A stretch of 47,164 bases of DNA from Spirochaetota bacterium (GTDB lineage: Bacteria > Spirochaetota > Spirochaetia > JABEVK01). Made by a program: the position numbers and the translations under genes. The stretch covers positions 1 to 47,164 of the forward strand of contig JAIFLN010000023.1 in NCBI GenBank assembly GCA_020049045.1, read 5' to 3'. This document shows, in pieces, positions 23,292 to 29,553 of this stretch. The notes under the pieces are model-generated. The model searched no databases and was not told where the DNA came from. It was given only the letters and a program-made list of their open reading frames with translations. Every line of letters starts with the position of its first letter. The stretch's first letter is position 1.

Positions 23292-24290
23292 ATGGCCATT
23301 CAAAACAAACGCTTGGGAAAACACGGGGTGATGGTGAGCAACCTTTGCCTGGGTACCATGAACTTCGGCTGGAAAACCGATGAAAAGGAAAGCTTCCGCA
23401 TCATGGACCGGGCTCTGGAACTAGGGATCAACTTTTTCGATACAGCAGACGTCTACGGCTGGGGCGGTGAACAGGGCGACACCGAGGAAATTCTGGGGCG
23501 CTGGTTTGCCCAGGGTGGCGGGCGGCGCGACGCGGTGGTTCTAGCCACCAAGGTGTTCAACCCCGTCAAGCGCAAGGCCAACCTGCCCGAAGTCAACACC
23601 GACGAGCGCAGCCTATCGGCCTACAAAATCCGCAAGCATGCCGAAGGGAGCCTGACCCGGCTGCGCACCGACCATATTGACCTGTACCAGATGCACCATA
23701 TCGACCGCGACTGCCCTTGGGACGAACTGTGGCAGGCCTTTGAGCAGCTGGGCAACCAGGGCAAAATCGTCTACACCGGCAGCAGCAACTTTGCCGGCTG
23801 GGACATCGCTACCGCCTGCCAGGAAGCCTCGAAGCGCGGCCTGATGGGCCTATCGAGCGAACAGAGCATCTACCACCTGAACAACCGCATGATCGAGCTC
23901 GAGGTGATTCCCGCCTGCCGCCACTACGGCCTGGGCCTGATTCCCTGGAGTCCTTTGGGAGGCGGTCTGTTGAGCGGGGCGCTTCAAGGTGCCAAGGAAG
24001 GCCGCAAGCTCGATGAGAACTTCCAAAAGGACGTGGAAAAGAATCGGGCCAAGTTGGAAAAGTACGAGGCTTTGTGCGCCAAACTGGGCGAGAGCCCGTC
24101 AACCGTGGCCCTGGCTTGGCTGCTGGCCAACCCCGTTGTGACCGCGCCCATCATCGGGCCTCGCACTGTGAAGCAGCTGGAAGACTCGATCCGGGCCACG
24201 GAAGTCGCTCTTGATGCGGCCACCCTCAAGGAGCTGGACGAAATTTTCCCTGGACCCGGGGGAGAAGCTCCCAAAGCCTACGCTTGGTAA
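23292..24290 (+). CDS. Aldo/keto reductase
   Basis: 332 aa; 'NFFDTADVYGWGGEQGDTEEILGRWF', 'HIDLYQMHHIDRDCPWDELWQAFEQLGNQGKIVYTGSSNFAGWDIA'. Confidence 0.95.
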   Translation: MAIQNKRLGKHGVMVSNLCLGTMNFGWKTDEKESFRIMDRALELGINFFDTADVYGWGGEQGDTEEILGRWFAQGGGRRDAVVLATKVFNPVKRKANLPEVNTDERSLSAYKIRKHAEGSLTRLRTDHIDLYQMHHIDRDCPWDELWQAFEQLGNQGKIVYTGSSNFAGWDIATACQEASKRGLMGLSSEQSIYHLNNRMIELEVIPACRHYGLGLIPWSPLGGGLLSGALQGAKEGRKLDENFQKDVEKNRAKLEKYEALCAKLGESPSTVALAWLLANPVVTAPIIGPRTVKQLEDSIRATEVALDAATLKELDEIFPGPGGEAPKAYAW

Positions 24291-25060
24291 AGGGAGGATT
24301 TGGGAAGTTCGATGTTCTCGGTTCGGAACCGCTCCAGCAGTTGAACGACCAGGGTGTTCTTGAGGTTCGTCATATCAGAAGGTTCAAACCAAACGCCCAG
24401 CGAGACTTCGGTACCAGCTGGTGCAAACCGTTTCACAAGAAGGAATAACTCCGGGTTTGCCAGGGCGTATTTGTTCACCACCACAACCTCTTTGATGACT
24501 TCGAGAGCCCTGGCCAAGTTTTCGCTATAGGGAATCGTAACGACAAGGTCGAGCCGACGGATGGGGAATCGGGTGACATTCACCACATTCGACTTGATCA
24601 GAGACTCATTGGGAATGCGCACAAAGGTGTTGTCAAACGTCCGGACTTTGACCGAAAGGGTGTCGATGGATAAAACCACACCGTTGACTTCACCGGTATT
24701 GATGACGTCGCCGACCGAAAAGGGCTTTTCCGAAAGAAGGAAGAGACCAGAGATCACATTGGAAATGGAGGTTTGGGCGGCAAAGCCGATGGCAATACCA
24801 GCAATACCGGCAGCCCCCAGAACCGCCGACAGATCAAAGCCCAGAGAGCTGAAAAATACCATGATCAAGACCACGAGAGTCGTCCAGTGGAAGGCCTTTC
24901 TCAGCAACATCTGGGTCTGCTCAGAAACCCGGCCCTTGGAAAGTCGGAGGGTAAGAAACTGCAGGAGGCGCAACCCCAAACCAAGAACCAAGAGAAGCAG
25001 AACAATCTGAAGAAGCTTGAGAAAGTCGAGGCTGTTCCAGACAGTATTCACAATGTCCAC
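24278..25060 (-). CDS. MscS-family mechanosensitive channel
   Basis: 'GAAGIAGIAIGFAAQTSISNVISGLFLLSEKPFSVGDVINTGEVNGVVLSIDTLSVKVRTFDNTFVRIPNESLI' pore helix and beta-domain. Confidence 0.92.
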   Translation of the reverse strand: MDIVNTVWNSLDFLKLLQIVLLLLVLGLGLRLLQFLTLRLSKGRVSEQTQMLLRKAFHWTTLVVLIMVFFSSLGFDLSAVLGAAGIAGIAIGFAAQTSISNVISGLFLLSEKPFSVGDVINTGEVNGVVLSIDTLSVKVRTFDNTFVRIPNESLIKSNVVNVTRFPIRRLDLVVTIPYSENLARALEVIKEVVVVNKYALANPELFLLVKRFAPAGTEVSLGVWFEPSDMTNLKNTLVVQLLERFRTENIELPKSSLYQA

Positions 25061-25069
25061 CGATACCTC

Positions 25070-25912
25070 CTACGAGATCCCTGCGATGTTTCGCAAGAAA
25101 TCTACCCCGCGCTGAAACAGTACTTCGCTCTGAGTGACAGCGGCCTCATAAAGCAAAAGACCCTGGTCCGAACCCTTGTAGGGTTCGGTGGTCATCCGCA
25201 AGGACTGGTCCCCCAAACTTTCCACCACCACCAAGTCGGAGCGCAAACTCCCCCCCTCCTCCCATAAGCTCAGGTATTCACAATAAATGGGGAACTGCCT
25301 AAGGACGAGAGGCGATTTACCCTCGTTGCGTACCTGAATGTGGCAGCGGAACATCGAACCGTAGGGCTGGTTCGGAGGCGCTTCCAAGGTGGTAGGCCAA
25401 AGGAAGCACAACCGGCCCGCACTGGTATCACCAAACCAAGTTTTATGAAGCTCAATGGTGTTGGGATGGGCGAGAACTACACCCGCAGAGGTCATCCAAT
25501 GCACCGAGACCGGCAGATCTACCAGAAATTCGGCTTGTTCTCCTGCAAGAACAGAAATGGCTCTGGTTGCCCTGACAACAAAGGGTCGAGACAGGGCAAA
25601 TGGACGGAGAGCAACCGGTTGGCACGAGGCTAGGACATGGTGGATCTCGAGGTCATAGGGAGCTTCAACGACCTCCGGGCCGCCAAAGTCTTGTCTTAGA
25701 CCCTCAGGGTGCTTCGGCCTTGTTGCCCAGTACCAGCTGGAGCCTACATTCTTCAAAAAGACTTCCGCTCCGTCGAGCCTCCAACGGTACCAGGAATCTT
25801 GTGAAAGGGTTCGAAAGGCCCACGGACTCTCTGCAGCGTTCAATCTTCCATATCCTGTTTTCCAGACGACCGTTTCCTTTCCCGAAGATCGGCCAACGTC
25901 CGTTGGAACCAT
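25070..25912 (-). CDS. Uncharacterised protein between two MscS-type genes (possibly DUF432-like; start uncertain, may be TTG near 25842)
   Basis: Long ORF, no TM segments apparent, beta-rich; 9-nt gap to the downstream MscS gene and overlap with the upstream gene. Confidence 0.7.
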   Translation of the reverse strand: MVPTDVGRSSGKETVVWKTGYGRLNAAESPWAFRTLSQDSWYRWRLDGAEVFLKNVGSSWYWATRPKHPEGLRQDFGGPEVVEAPYDLEIHHVLASCQPVALRPFALSRPFVVRATRAISVLAGEQAEFLVDLPVSVHWMTSAGVVLAHPNTIELHKTWFGDTSAGRLCFLWPTTLEAPPNQPYGSMFRCHIQVRNEGKSPLVLRQFPIYCEYLSLWEEGGSLRSDLVVVESLGDQSLRMTTEPYKGSDQGLLLYEAAVTQSEVLFQRGVDFLRNIAGIS

Positions 25913-26526
25913 TCACGGGCCAGATCCTTGCACCCCAGACCAAAAGCCAGCGCTACCGCCAATCCCAGAGTTGCGGTCAGAATCAGGACAATCGTATTGA
26001 GAATGGTCTTGCCGATATTGAGTTCTTCCACTGCCATAAGGAGAATCAGACCCACACCAAAATATTTCACCGCTTTGGCGATCAGGTCGGCGTGGCTGGA
26101 ACCGGCATTCCTCAGGATGGTCCGGACGAAATTGGAGACAAACGCTACCAGCAGAAGCCCGATTCCCACAATCATCAAGGCTGCCAGCAACCCAGGCACG
26201 GTCCCGGCGACCCGTTCAGTGAACGAGGTCACCACTTGGATGTCTAGCAGCCGCGATAAGTAGACGAGAACGGCTACCATAAGAGCCCAGAAGACGATGA
26301 CGCTGACCAGCTTGGCAGGGGTGTAGGTAACGCCGCCTTTTCGAAGAAATTCCCCGAAGCCGGCCTTCTCCCCCATTTTGTCGAACCGGAGCAGCCTTAA
26401 GAGGGCTTCTACCAGGAGACGGACCAGGGTGGCACCCAGAAAACCACCTGCCAGGGTGATGGCCGCGCTGACACTGAGCGGGAGTCCGCTCCAAAAGAGC
26501 CTTGCGGTGATCAGGAATTCATTCAT
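25840..26526 (-). CDS. MscS-like TM-helix membrane protein without an obvious C-terminal MscS beta-domain
   Basis: MNEFLITARLFWSGLPLSVSAAITLAGGFLGATLVRLLVEALLRLL... 'ILNTIVLILTATLGLAVALAFGLGCKDLAREW', as in conserved TM-helix MscS relatives. Confidence 0.75.
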   Translation of the reverse strand: MNEFLITARLFWSGLPLSVSAAITLAGGFLGATLVRLLVEALLRLLRFDKMGEKAGFGEFLRKGGVTYTPAKLVSVIVFWALMVAVLVYLSRLLDIQVVTSFTERVAGTVPGLLAALMIVGIGLLLVAFVSNFVRTILRNAGSSHADLIAKAVKYFGVGLILLMAVEELNIGKTILNTIVLILTATLGLAVALAFGLGCKDLAREWFQRTLADLRERKRSSGKQDMED

Positions 26527-27692
26527 AAGGATTCTCCTTGGGAGGGGGGGTCCACGCCAACAACCCATTGACGCATCTGTTTGACGGTCAGTCCAGCCAG
26601 CCCCAGTTTTTCGATGGTCCGGCCCTCGGTGCGGTAGTCCCGGTCGTGGAGCAGCGAGGCCAGCTGAATGATCATGTCGATGGTAGGGGTAGCGACACCG
26701 AGCTTTTGTCCCAGCGAAGCCATGGGAACCAGGCTCATCGGGACGTCTTCAGAAATGTAGCGGTGGGCTATGGTCGAAGGAGCCTGGATGCCCCGATATC
26801 CGTCGGTATTCTGGATGGCCAGGTAGAGCGAAGCGCCTGCCGAATCGTAACTCAGATACAGCCACTCTCGGGCCGAAACGCAGTGAACACCGAGCGCCGA
26901 TGCGACGTTGCGTCGCTCTGTATCGATGGCTTCGAGGATCTTTGCGATCGAAGGTGTAATGCCGTCGATGTAGTATTGAAAACGCCCCCCCGTTCCTTCA
27001 ATCCAGCCCGCATTGAGAAGGGTCAGGGCCGGATGAAACACGGCACCGATGTTGTCGAGACTGGTTGACAGGACACTGCCACCAGCCACAAAGGACGGAA
27101 ATGCCTGATTTAAAACTGCCAGCACCGGCGGAATCCAATGGGCCGGGAGGGTCGCCAGGGGTACCGAGTTTTTCACCTTGTAGATGTGAGCCTCAGACCT
27201 GCTGATGGCCCGGGAAGCGTACAGAAAAGTTTGGGTCTCGGCGATCACCACGAGGGCGGTGCAACCCCGCTGGGTTAGAATGCCGCGAAATTCCAGCGCG
27301 CCACCGGTTCTGCCGGGGTTGAGGACGACGATTTGCCCATCCCGAAGAAAGGGTGCCATGCTTTCGGCCAACGGCCGGTGGGCAGTCGCCGGAGTGACAA
27401 CCATCAGGACGTCGGCGTGGGTCACGGCGGTCTCGATATCGCTGGTAGCCGTCTGAACCGCCCCGAAGCCGGACAATGCCCCCTCAACTTTAACGCCTCC
27501 ATGCCAGCGGACGCCCTGAAGATGTTCGTCCGTCCGGTTGTAGAGGCACACTGCAATCCCCTGCATACCCAAATAGCCAGCCATGGCCAAGCCGCCGTTT
27601 CCCGCTCCGACAACGGTATACCTCACCTGTGAACCCTTGGCCTTGAGGGTGTCCAGTAGCGGCTGCAACCGCTGGTCGAGATCATCCGCCAT
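26523..27692 (-). CDS. NAD(P)-dependent octopine/nopaline dehydrogenase-like protein
   Basis: 'VVGAGNGGLAMAGYLGMQGIAVCLYNR' Rossmann motif; 'VLNPGRTGGALEFRGIL', 'IAETQTFLYASR', 'VFHPALTLLNAGWIEGTGGRFQYYIDGITPSIAKILEAID'. Confidence 0.8.
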   Translation of the reverse strand: MADDLDQRLQPLLDTLKAKGSQVRYTVVGAGNGGLAMAGYLGMQGIAVCLYNRTDEHLQGVRWHGGVKVEGALSGFGAVQTATSDIETAVTHADVLMVVTPATAHRPLAESMAPFLRDGQIVVLNPGRTGGALEFRGILTQRGCTALVVIAETQTFLYASRAISRSEAHIYKVKNSVPLATLPAHWIPPVLAVLNQAFPSFVAGGSVLSTSLDNIGAVFHPALTLLNAGWIEGTGGRFQYYIDGITPSIAKILEAIDTERRNVASALGVHCVSAREWLYLSYDSAGASLYLAIQNTDGYRGIQAPSTIAHRYISEDVPMSLVPMASLGQKLGVATPTIDMIIQLASLLHDRDYRTEGRTIEKLGLAGLTVKQMRQWVVGVDPPSQGESL

Positions 27693-29553
27693 GGATAGCC
27701 TCCAAGCGGTTTGCCATGGAAAGCGGCTTTCCGTCGCCATCGACCACGACCACTCCCCCGTTGTGCAGCCTGGTTTTCCAGTGGATGGCGCGGGCAAATT
27801 CGTCGCGGCACAACCAAAGGTAGGGTACGGGGAAAAAGCCCGCGAGCAGAACTTGGTACAGCCCCTCGGGGGAATACGGTTCAGGAATCCGGGTTTCGAT
27901 GGCGGATATCATCTGCTGGGCATCGTTCAGCAGGCTCGCCATACGGAGGTCTACCTCTTTGGAGGCTGCCATATCCGGCACCTTTCCTTGTTGTCTCAGA
28001 ACCCGCCAGTCTTGCAGTGCTTGGCGGGTGATTTGGATACTCTCGTCGACGACGGCCGGGTCGGCCAGGTGGAGAGCCTCCGAATAGCTGACAACATGGA
28101 TGATCGCAGGGCTATGCGGGTCTTGCGGTTCGATATCGTCCATAAGCGCCGTGACCGCCGCTAACTGAATTTTGGCCTTTTCTTCATCGGGTGAGAAATA
28201 ATCGAGACCGCCACGGGGTTGGAGATACACACGGAATTGCGGATTCTCAAGGCTGCGCACCAGACGGAGAAGCGCTCTGGCTTTTGCCAGGTCTTGAACT
28301 CCCCAGGTCGCCTTGGGGGTGTTGAGCATCACCTGAAGGACAAAGTCCTGGATACCCGCTTTCTGTGCCAATTTGGCCGCCAGGTACCCCGAAACAATGT
28401 AGGACACATCGTCACTGCCACGAAAGGCGAAGTGATGGGGAACGTTGGGCTCAAACGGCTTGCCGGTGCTGGCGATATAACGCAGAGTGTCCCAGTGTTC
28501 CTGAAGGTTCTGCCGCACCGTGTTGGGTCCCCGACCATCGATCTGGCAAAACCACCACAGCGAAAGTGCATGCCAGGCGATGTGAAGGTTGGTCTCGAGC
28601 ATTTGGGCGACACGAACCACGTCGCGTGTGCCGGAGTAAGCTCTGACCAGCATGGGCCGGGCCGCCAACCAAAGCTCGGCGAATTCGGCTTCTGTTTGCA
28701 GAGGAACCCCTCCCCCGTTGGGCTGATCGCCCCAATCCTGAAAGAAATCCGACTGGGTGAGCTGGGACGATCCCACGGACAAGACATCGAGAAAGCCGGA
28801 GGCCGCCAACTGCCTCGCCCAGCGCAGGTTGAGGTCGACCGCCTCTTTGCGATCGGGAAGGTAGGCTCCCACATGAGCCCGCATCAGCGGGGGATGGCCT
28901 GCTCGGCGGCCATCGGCCAACCGGTTGACAAGGCAGTCGTCCGGCCCTCCATAACCTTGGTAGACCCGCTGGACGGGGAGCTGCTTTCGGTAGGTTTGCT
29001 TGCGAACCAGATCGGTGGCAAACTTCCATCGGGCTTCGTCGTAGGCAATTCCTTGCGTGAGCATTGCGGGAATCAGGGCTGGAGGGAGGCCGAGGAGGCC
29101 AAGGGTCTCTCCCGGCGATTCGTCGCCAACGAACACCGCCGACACCCAGGGAAACTCACTGGCAACGGCTTGGCAGGTGGCTGGCAACCCGGCAAAGAAC
29201 ACCGTCCTGATCGGTCCTCCTGCGGTGTCAAGCAGTCCACAGCGACTCAACGACTCGGAAAAGGCACGGAAAAACCGCAACCCATCGCCCGGGTCAAGCC
29301 GGTAACTGAACCCTAGAGCAGTCAGGGTGTTGGCGTGAACCCATTGTGAAAGCATCCCGTCGCTGGCGGCCGAAGCCGTTTCGATTCCCTGGCACACTTC
29401 GTGTCCGGCAAGGAAATTCAGAATTCCACAGTCCTCGAGGAGCTGAGAAACAGACGCTATCCCCAAAGTATGGATGTCGATCGCGGGATGGAGCAACCCG
29501 ACACGATCTTGAACAGTCAGACCCTTTCGCATAGACAAAGGATGGACGCACAA
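27682..29553 (-). CDS. Putative cobalamin-binding mutase-like protein (TTG start at 29553 or ATG at 29532)
   Basis: N-terminal 'LHPAIDIHTLGIASVSQLLEDCGIL' fits the DxHxxG B12-binding motif; followed by a large domain with 'VPHHFAFRGSDDVSYIVSGYLAAKLAQKAGIQDFVLQVMLNTP' and 'GGLDYFSPDEEKAKIQLAAVTALMDDIEP', resembling a TIM-barrel mutase. Family not confirmed. Confidence 0.5.
   Translation of the reverse strand: MCVHPLSMRKGLTVQDRVGLLHPAIDIHTLGIASVSQLLEDCGILNFLAGHEVCQGIETASAASDGMLSQWVHANTLTALGFSYRLDPGDGLRFFRAFSESLSRCGLLDTAGGPIRTVFFAGLPATCQAVASEFPWVSAVFVGDESPGETLGLLGLPPALIPAMLTQGIAYDEARWKFATDLVRKQTYRKQLPVQRVYQGYGGPDDCLVNRLADGRRAGHPPLMRAHVGAYLPDRKEAVDLNLRWARQLAASGFLDVLSVGSSQLTQSDFFQDWGDQPNGGGVPLQTEAEFAELWLAARPMLVRAYSGTRDVVRVAQMLETNLHIAWHALSLWWFCQIDGRGPNTVRQNLQEHWDTLRYIASTGKPFEPNVPHHFAFRGSDDVSYIVSGYLAAKLAQKAGIQDFVLQVMLNTPKATWGVQDLAKARALLRLVRSLENPQFRVYLQPRGGLDYFSPDEEKAKIQLAAVTALMDDIEPQDPHSPAIIHVVSYSEALHLADPAVVDESIQITRQALQDWRVLRQQGKVPDMAASKEVDLRMASLLNDAQQMISAIETRIPEPYSPEGLYQVLLAGFFPVPYLWLCRDEFARAIHWKTRLHNGGVVVVDGDGKPLSMANRLEAIHGG

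Follow-up and report, generated by a model that had tools for sequence, protein, structure and literature searches.

In the metallophore opine pathways (staphylopine, pseudopaline), an opine dehydrogenase works together with a nicotianamine-synthase-like partner enzyme. Hot-spring opine dehydrogenases (mODHs) close to the Arthrobacter enzyme ArODH prefer L-Asp and L-Glu with pyruvate (Telek and colleagues, PMC10787698). In these enzymes Arg replaces Ala111 and Gly replaces Asn198, and exchange of both residues switches the Phe/Asp preference (PMC10787698). Glutamate mutase binds the glycyl part through R66, R149 and E171 and the acrylate part through R100 and Y177 (PMC10947579). Here we analyse a locus at which an opine dehydrogenase gene stands next to a gene for a predicted B12-dependent mutase-like protein. 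The stretch studied (hereafter the window) comprises 47,164 nucleotides of Spirochaetota bacterium DNA, positions 1 to 47,164 of contig JAIFLN010000023.1 (assembly GCA_020049045.1). Five tightly packed genes, here denoted A to E, lie on the minus strand of the window with overlapping starts and stops, a tight succession that an earlier note on this DNA had described and that we saw again in the sequence.

Two conserved modules, A-B(-C) and D-E, meet in this genome. Our reading of the first is that a B12-mutase-class protein, A, and an acidic-type opine dehydrogenase, B, would together make an N-(1-carboxyethyl) acidic amino acid; for the pathway as a whole we consider the case evenly balanced, with its parts graded separately below.

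The enzymes encoded by A and B

Gene B (26523..27692, minus strand; 389 aa) starts at ATG 27692, 11 nt inside the end of A, confirming the overlapping start proposed earlier. Its product matches PF02317 at 6e-48 and carries the GxGxxG Rossmann motif and a His-Asp dyad. The closest solved structure is the Arthrobacter enzyme 1BG6, at 3e-80, and the dyad H220/D316, corresponding to H202/D297 of ArODH, is invariant among the aligned enzymes; the assignment of B to the opine-type dehydrogenases in the earlier note thus stands. ArODH positions 111 and 198 correspond to R128 and G216 of B. The Arg111/Gly198 pair is present in all 19 distinct A-linked enzymes, the B protein of the window included, cases that are not independent because the A-linked enzymes form one clade (the alignment held 22 A-linked rows, three of them second copies of the same gene). 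The phylum sample also has six PF02317 enzymes with no link to A, and the pair is absent from them: all six carry Asn198 and none carries Arg111. The signature predicts acidic amino acids as the substrate class of B. Fold, dyad and specificity signature, all read from the sequence, strongly support B as an opine dehydrogenase of the type predicted to join acidic L-amino acids reductively to pyruvate.

Gene A (27682..29532, minus strand) probably starts at ATG 29532, yielding 616 aa, rather than at TTG 29553 (623 aa), from which it had previously been read, because homologues align from the ATG and the predicted local distance difference test score (pLDDT) stays below 50 over the first seven residues (1-7) of the longer form. 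No Pfam or NCBIfam family matches A, and a sequence search against the PDB sequences gave no match. A aligns with 22 homologues from end to end at 46-57% identity, and a D-x-H-x-L-G motif near the N-terminus is invariant in the 23 members. The B12-binding domain PF02310 matches weakly in 12 of these 23 close members (best 0.0011) and not in A of the window; it exceeds the cut-off only in a distant homologue at locus L048 (541 aa, ~30% identical), at 1.6e-9. This homologue lies at 7949-9574 of L048, where B and C are of the usual type, and is possibly a second A subfamily.

The AlphaFold2 model of A (mean pLDDT 89.1; predicted template-modelling score, pTM, 0.90) places the B12-type domain first, followed by a triosephosphate isomerase (TIM) barrel like that of glutamate mutase and the aminomutases. 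Foldseek against the PDB ranked the glutamate mutase epsilon subunit (GlmE) first and second (3.5e-13 and 2.0e-12), the top match being 1cb7_B with template-modelling (TM) scores of 0.50/0.63, which assigns a GlmE-like TIM-barrel fold to A. Lysine 5,6-aminomutase (7.9e-11) and ornithine 4,5-aminomutase (1.4e-9 and 2.9e-9) followed, so that the top five matches are all subunits of adenosylcobalamin (AdoCbl) mutases, and unrelated barrels appeared from 3e-5 onwards. The structure prediction that the earlier note had suggested for this gene therefore returned a mutase-like fold, and its proposal of a cobalamin-type domain gains support from the motif, the PF02310 match at L048 and the fold matches. 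Together, these data strongly support A, as modelled, as a fused B12-domain and mutase-barrel protein of the glutamate mutase/aminomutase structural class, in a family unnamed by Pfam and NCBIfam.

DxHxxG domains are also found in corrinoid methyltransferases, and the best PDB sequence matches of the L048 domain are 4jgi and 1y80. A could accordingly be a corrinoid protein or methyltransferase, its B12 domain serving methyl transfer and its barrel another substrate. We regard this as improbable: Foldseek puts the five AdoCbl mutase chains four orders of magnitude ahead of any methyltransferase-type barrel, and A has counterparts of mutase residues. GlmE R149, Q292 and E330 correspond to R304, Q445 and E492 of A, which are invariant, in a sequence alignment on which three MAFFT modes agree.

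In the same three modes GlmE R66 aligns with H227 of A, with R225 two residues away, and R100 falls in a gap; of the arginine claw R66/R100/R149, R149 is the only member clearly kept. The glutamate mutase model PF06368 (Met_asp_mut_E) matched neither A nor its 22 aligned homologues at E<=1, and gave no match in genome G000. With no PF06368 match and no R100, membership of A among the plain glutamate mutases was rejected. A weak PF06368 match in another genome (G059, locus L056) reads as a methylmalonyl-CoA mutase and was set aside as a cross-match. From the Foldseek ranking and the residue mapping, A is best read as belonging to the mutase class; it may bind the head group of an amino acid and need not use glutamate; glutamate may not be its substrate because R100 is without a counterpart and the equivalents of R66 and E171 are uncertain.

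Linkage of A and B and a proposed pathway

Homologue and linkage searches covered genome samples. Besides the window, 24 loci were found; in 23 of them A and B are neighbours on one strand, and C joins them in 13. The gene orders in these 23 loci are A-B-C (11), B-C-A (2) and B-A (10); in L048, A and B are separated by an asparagine-synthase-like gene. L014, the only locus lacking B, belongs to a genome that contains a B-type gene at another site. The arrangement is not chance, with same-strand adjacency in 23 of 24 loci although just 11 of 247 genomes of the phylum carry a PF02317 gene. By label, the A-carrying taxa are Armatimonadetes, Spirochaetes, Phycisphaerae, Acidobacteriota, Bacillota, Tissierellia and Gracilibacteria, together with Azoarcus indigens DSM 12121, a cultured strain; all other carriers are metagenome bins, so that individual labels may be wrong. 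The window shares gene neighbourhoods with spirochaete loci, which by itself suggests an origin in Spirochaetota. A is present in 9 of the 393 genomes of the phylum sample, in none of six other genomes searched from the genus and family of the window, and in Azoarcus indigens alone among 151 genomes of its family. Together, these results strongly support A-B(-C) as a patchily distributed metabolic cassette in which A and B are co-conserved across phyla, and they uphold the functional link between A and B that the earlier note had drawn.

Ligase genes recur beside the pair. D-Ala-D-Ala-ligase-like (Ddl-like) ATP-grasp proteins adjoin A-B in three loci (L043, L049 and L050; Pfam-checked), a more general ATP-grasp protein does so in L009, and asparagine-synthase-like proteins do so in L048, L011 and L006. 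Eight A-positive genomes carry a distinct A-linked ATP-grasp subfamily.

In the pathway we propose, A, with adenosylcobalamin, would rearrange an amino acid into the acidic amino acid used by B, in analogy to the formation of L-threo-3-methylaspartate from glutamate; alternatively, A might rearrange the product of B. B would add pyruvate with NAD(P)H, giving an (R)-N-(1-carboxyethyl) acidic amino acid. Where present, the Ddl-like or asparagine-synthase-like enzyme would activate a carboxylate of the product to form an amide. Such dehydrogenases create an (R)-carboxyethyl centre that resembles D-alanine and would suit a Ddl-like ligase. C may carry the product across the membrane or regulate its passage. 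The fullest form of this proposal is that A represents a new class of fused AdoCbl-dependent amino-acid mutase which acts together with an opine dehydrogenase of the acidic type, and often also with an amide-forming ligase and a small membrane protein, so that bacteria of many phyla would make an N-(1-carboxyethyl) amino-acid natural product; this we put forward tentatively, at somewhat less than even confidence.

The opposite direction has also to be weighed, as opine dehydrogenases are reversible in principle. B could oxidise an imported opine to pyruvate and an acidic amino acid, and A could rearrange the latter towards central metabolism; some B-A loci indeed lack any ligase. Synthesis is favoured because ATP-grasp or asparagine-synthase-like ligases recur beside A-B, and in the neighbourhoods read by eye we recognised no opine importer and no methylaspartase next to the pair. 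We consider breakdown unlikely, though the likeliest of the alternatives.

Several observations weigh against the synthetic pathway or some part of it. The shared descent of the signature-bearing enzymes and the incomplete set of glutamate mutase residues in A have been given above. The hhalign alignment of A with GlmE is colinear but weak (P 0.016 and 0.0099) and supports the fold result only. On the supporting side, a cobalamin adenosyltransferase (PF01923 or PF02572) is encoded in all 16 A-positive genomes checked, but this is weak evidence because such genes are common. The ligase and C are not universal: the genome of the window lacks the A-linked ATP-grasp subfamily (best match 8.9e-13), and ten B-A loci are without C.

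Other features were seen around individual A loci. In Azoarcus indigens DSM 12121 (L015, 1714-16044), a flagellin gene and a DegT-type aminotransferase gene lie a few kb from A-B by eye, which suggests a glycan or flagellin-modification neighbourhood in this lineage. In L009 (154-8132) the order is B-A followed by the Pfam-checked ATP-grasp gene, and by eye genes for a glycosyltransferase, a DegT-type aminotransferase and a membrane protein surround them in a surface-glycan-like setting. One and the same cyclase-like gene (MEWIDLS...GTHVDPPWHF) directly follows A in two B-A loci (L005, 5329-5964; L010, 9874-10509). In L004 (1324-1956) a 222-residue open frame, perhaps a remnant, corresponds to no more of A than its C-terminal part (residues 464-610); its genome, G007, encodes a more distant opine dehydrogenase (3e-71). 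An Ala_racemase_N protein (L050, 7073-8122) lies beside the Ddl-like ligase, A and B, hinting that this variant involves a D-amino acid. Finally, genome G398 holds two A-B-C clusters on different contigs (L042 and L047), one cut by the contig end, reflecting either a duplication or a mixed assembly.

Gene C and the module D-E

Gene C (25840..26526, minus strand; 228 aa) starts at ATG 26526 in an ATGA overlap (26523-26526) with the stop of B, preceded by AAGGAG; the overlap agrees with the earlier description. It encodes a membrane protein with PF05552 TM-helix repeats, and these helices are the only feature common to all 12 C members. The MscS beta-domain PF00924 is absent from C, and C was therefore rejected as a second full MscS channel. 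In the genomes searched, strong members of the C subfamily occur once per genome, beside A-B, with two in G398 and its two clusters; one weaker member lies in a genome without A. C is a candidate channel, exporter or regulator and the third partner of A-B in 13 of the 24 other loci.

For gene D (25070..25843, minus strand) the most likely start is TTG 25843, which overlaps the stop of C as TTGA and gives 257 aa rather than the 280 aa from the upstream ATG 25912: D homologues begin just before a conserved W, and the model of the longer form shows disorder over residues 1-23. The 73-nt overlap of C and D (25840-25912) reported previously arises from that upstream ATG and is very probably wrong. 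Gene E (24278..25060, minus strand; 260 aa) starts at GTG 25060 with an AGGAGG site, 9 nt after D (gap 25061-25069, as noted before), and its 3' end reaches 13 nt into a convergent aldo/keto reductase gene. E is a complete MscS-type mechanosensitive channel, with PF21088 (TM2/3 helices), PF00924 (beta-domain) and PF21082 (C-terminal domain) all above cut-off. Of the two MscS-type channels named in the earlier note, E stands and C, with PF05552 only, does not. The window contains no tRNA and no Rfam match, and promoter and terminator scans gave nothing above chance.

D is probably a divergent DUF432 protein: PF04254 matches 11 of the 12 aligned D proteins at E<=1 (best 8.8e-8), with D of the window below detection. 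Structure prediction, which had also been suggested for this gene, gave an almost all-beta model (pLDDT 85, pTM 0.81) for which Foldseek found no credible match in the PDB (best E 0.044, TM <=0.14); a sequence search against the PDB sequences gave no match. D occurs in 35 of the 393 genomes of the phylum sample. An MscS gene lies on the same strand next to D in all 12 loci from the class search and directly downstream of D in 28 of the 30 from the phylum search (L064-L093), two overlapping sets that both include the window. D-E is thus a separate, widespread module whose pairing is independent of A-B.

The earlier note had joined all five genes in one system, in which an opine-like osmolyte would be released through mechanosensitive channels with D as the adaptor for two of them. 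The tight packing of the genes with overlapping starts and stops, the PF05552-type C protein and the MscS-type E protein are in keeping with this view, and A and D co-occur above expectation (D in 5 of 9 genomes with A vs 30 of 384 others in the phylum sample; Fisher p 4e-4, kinship ignored). Against it, the five-gene order is seen only in the window, an outcome that the earlier note itself had named as refuting, whereas the two- and three-gene orders recur and pass that check: D-E accompanies A-B(-C) in none of the 24 other loci, and four other A-positive genomes hold D on contigs different from those of A-B. Among the 29 other D loci of the phylum, MscS adjoins D in 27, and A, B and C are all missing from the stretches examined; D was therefore rejected as a gene tied to A-B, and it pairs with E only. 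A single five-gene system is, on this evidence, quite unlikely. In this genome D-E lies directly downstream of A-B-C and may be co-transcribed with it, and here alone coupling of A-B-C to tension-gated release through D-E is possible.

Comparison with known systems

In the literature searched, with subscription journals mostly outside it, we found no description of the A-B(-C) cluster, in agreement with the earlier note, and none of the DUF432-MscS pairing. In the latter pairing, to which D of the window, itself below PF04254 detection, probably belongs, the DUF432 partner is a candidate accessory protein of mechanosensitive channels, and the modelled fold of D resembles nothing solved.

A shares with glutamate mutase (MutS/GlmS plus MutE/GlmE; PF06368) the GlmE-like barrel by structure, a predicted B12-type domain and invariant counterparts of R149, Q292 and E330. 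Unlike glutamate mutase, A would have both domains in one chain, the B12 domain first, and it departs further in its missing PF06368 match, in the positions of R66, R100 and E171 and in its conserved partner, an opine dehydrogenase. Ornithine 4,5- and lysine 5,6-aminomutase, whose AdoCbl mutase barrels are the next-best structural matches, differ from A in identity (14-15%) and in their partners; the Ala_racemase_N protein of L050 recalls the ornithine racemase of the ornithine aminomutase pathway. Few enzyme types are known among the AdoCbl radical mutases; the A family, covered by neither Pfam nor NCBIfam, would be a further one, and its conserved partner would give a clue to the chemistry.

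Like the metallophore opine pathways, A-B combines an opine dehydrogenase with a partner biosynthetic enzyme; unlike in those pathways, the partner is a predicted B12 protein, and no nicotianamine-synthase-like partner was recognised at the A-B loci. A-B(-C) predicts a new small-molecule class across several phyla, with Azoarcus indigens as a cultured carrier. B resembles ArODH/CENDH (1BG6) and the mODHs in fold and His-Asp dyad, and the mODHs also in Arg111/Gly198. The mODHs were characterised as isolated enzymes, and the terms 'cobalamin' and 'genomic context' are absent from that paper (PMC10787698). Such acidic-type opine dehydrogenases came from metagenome mining without a natural role; the linkage to A offers a testable one and, if the proposal is true, these orphan enzymes gain a natural pathway.

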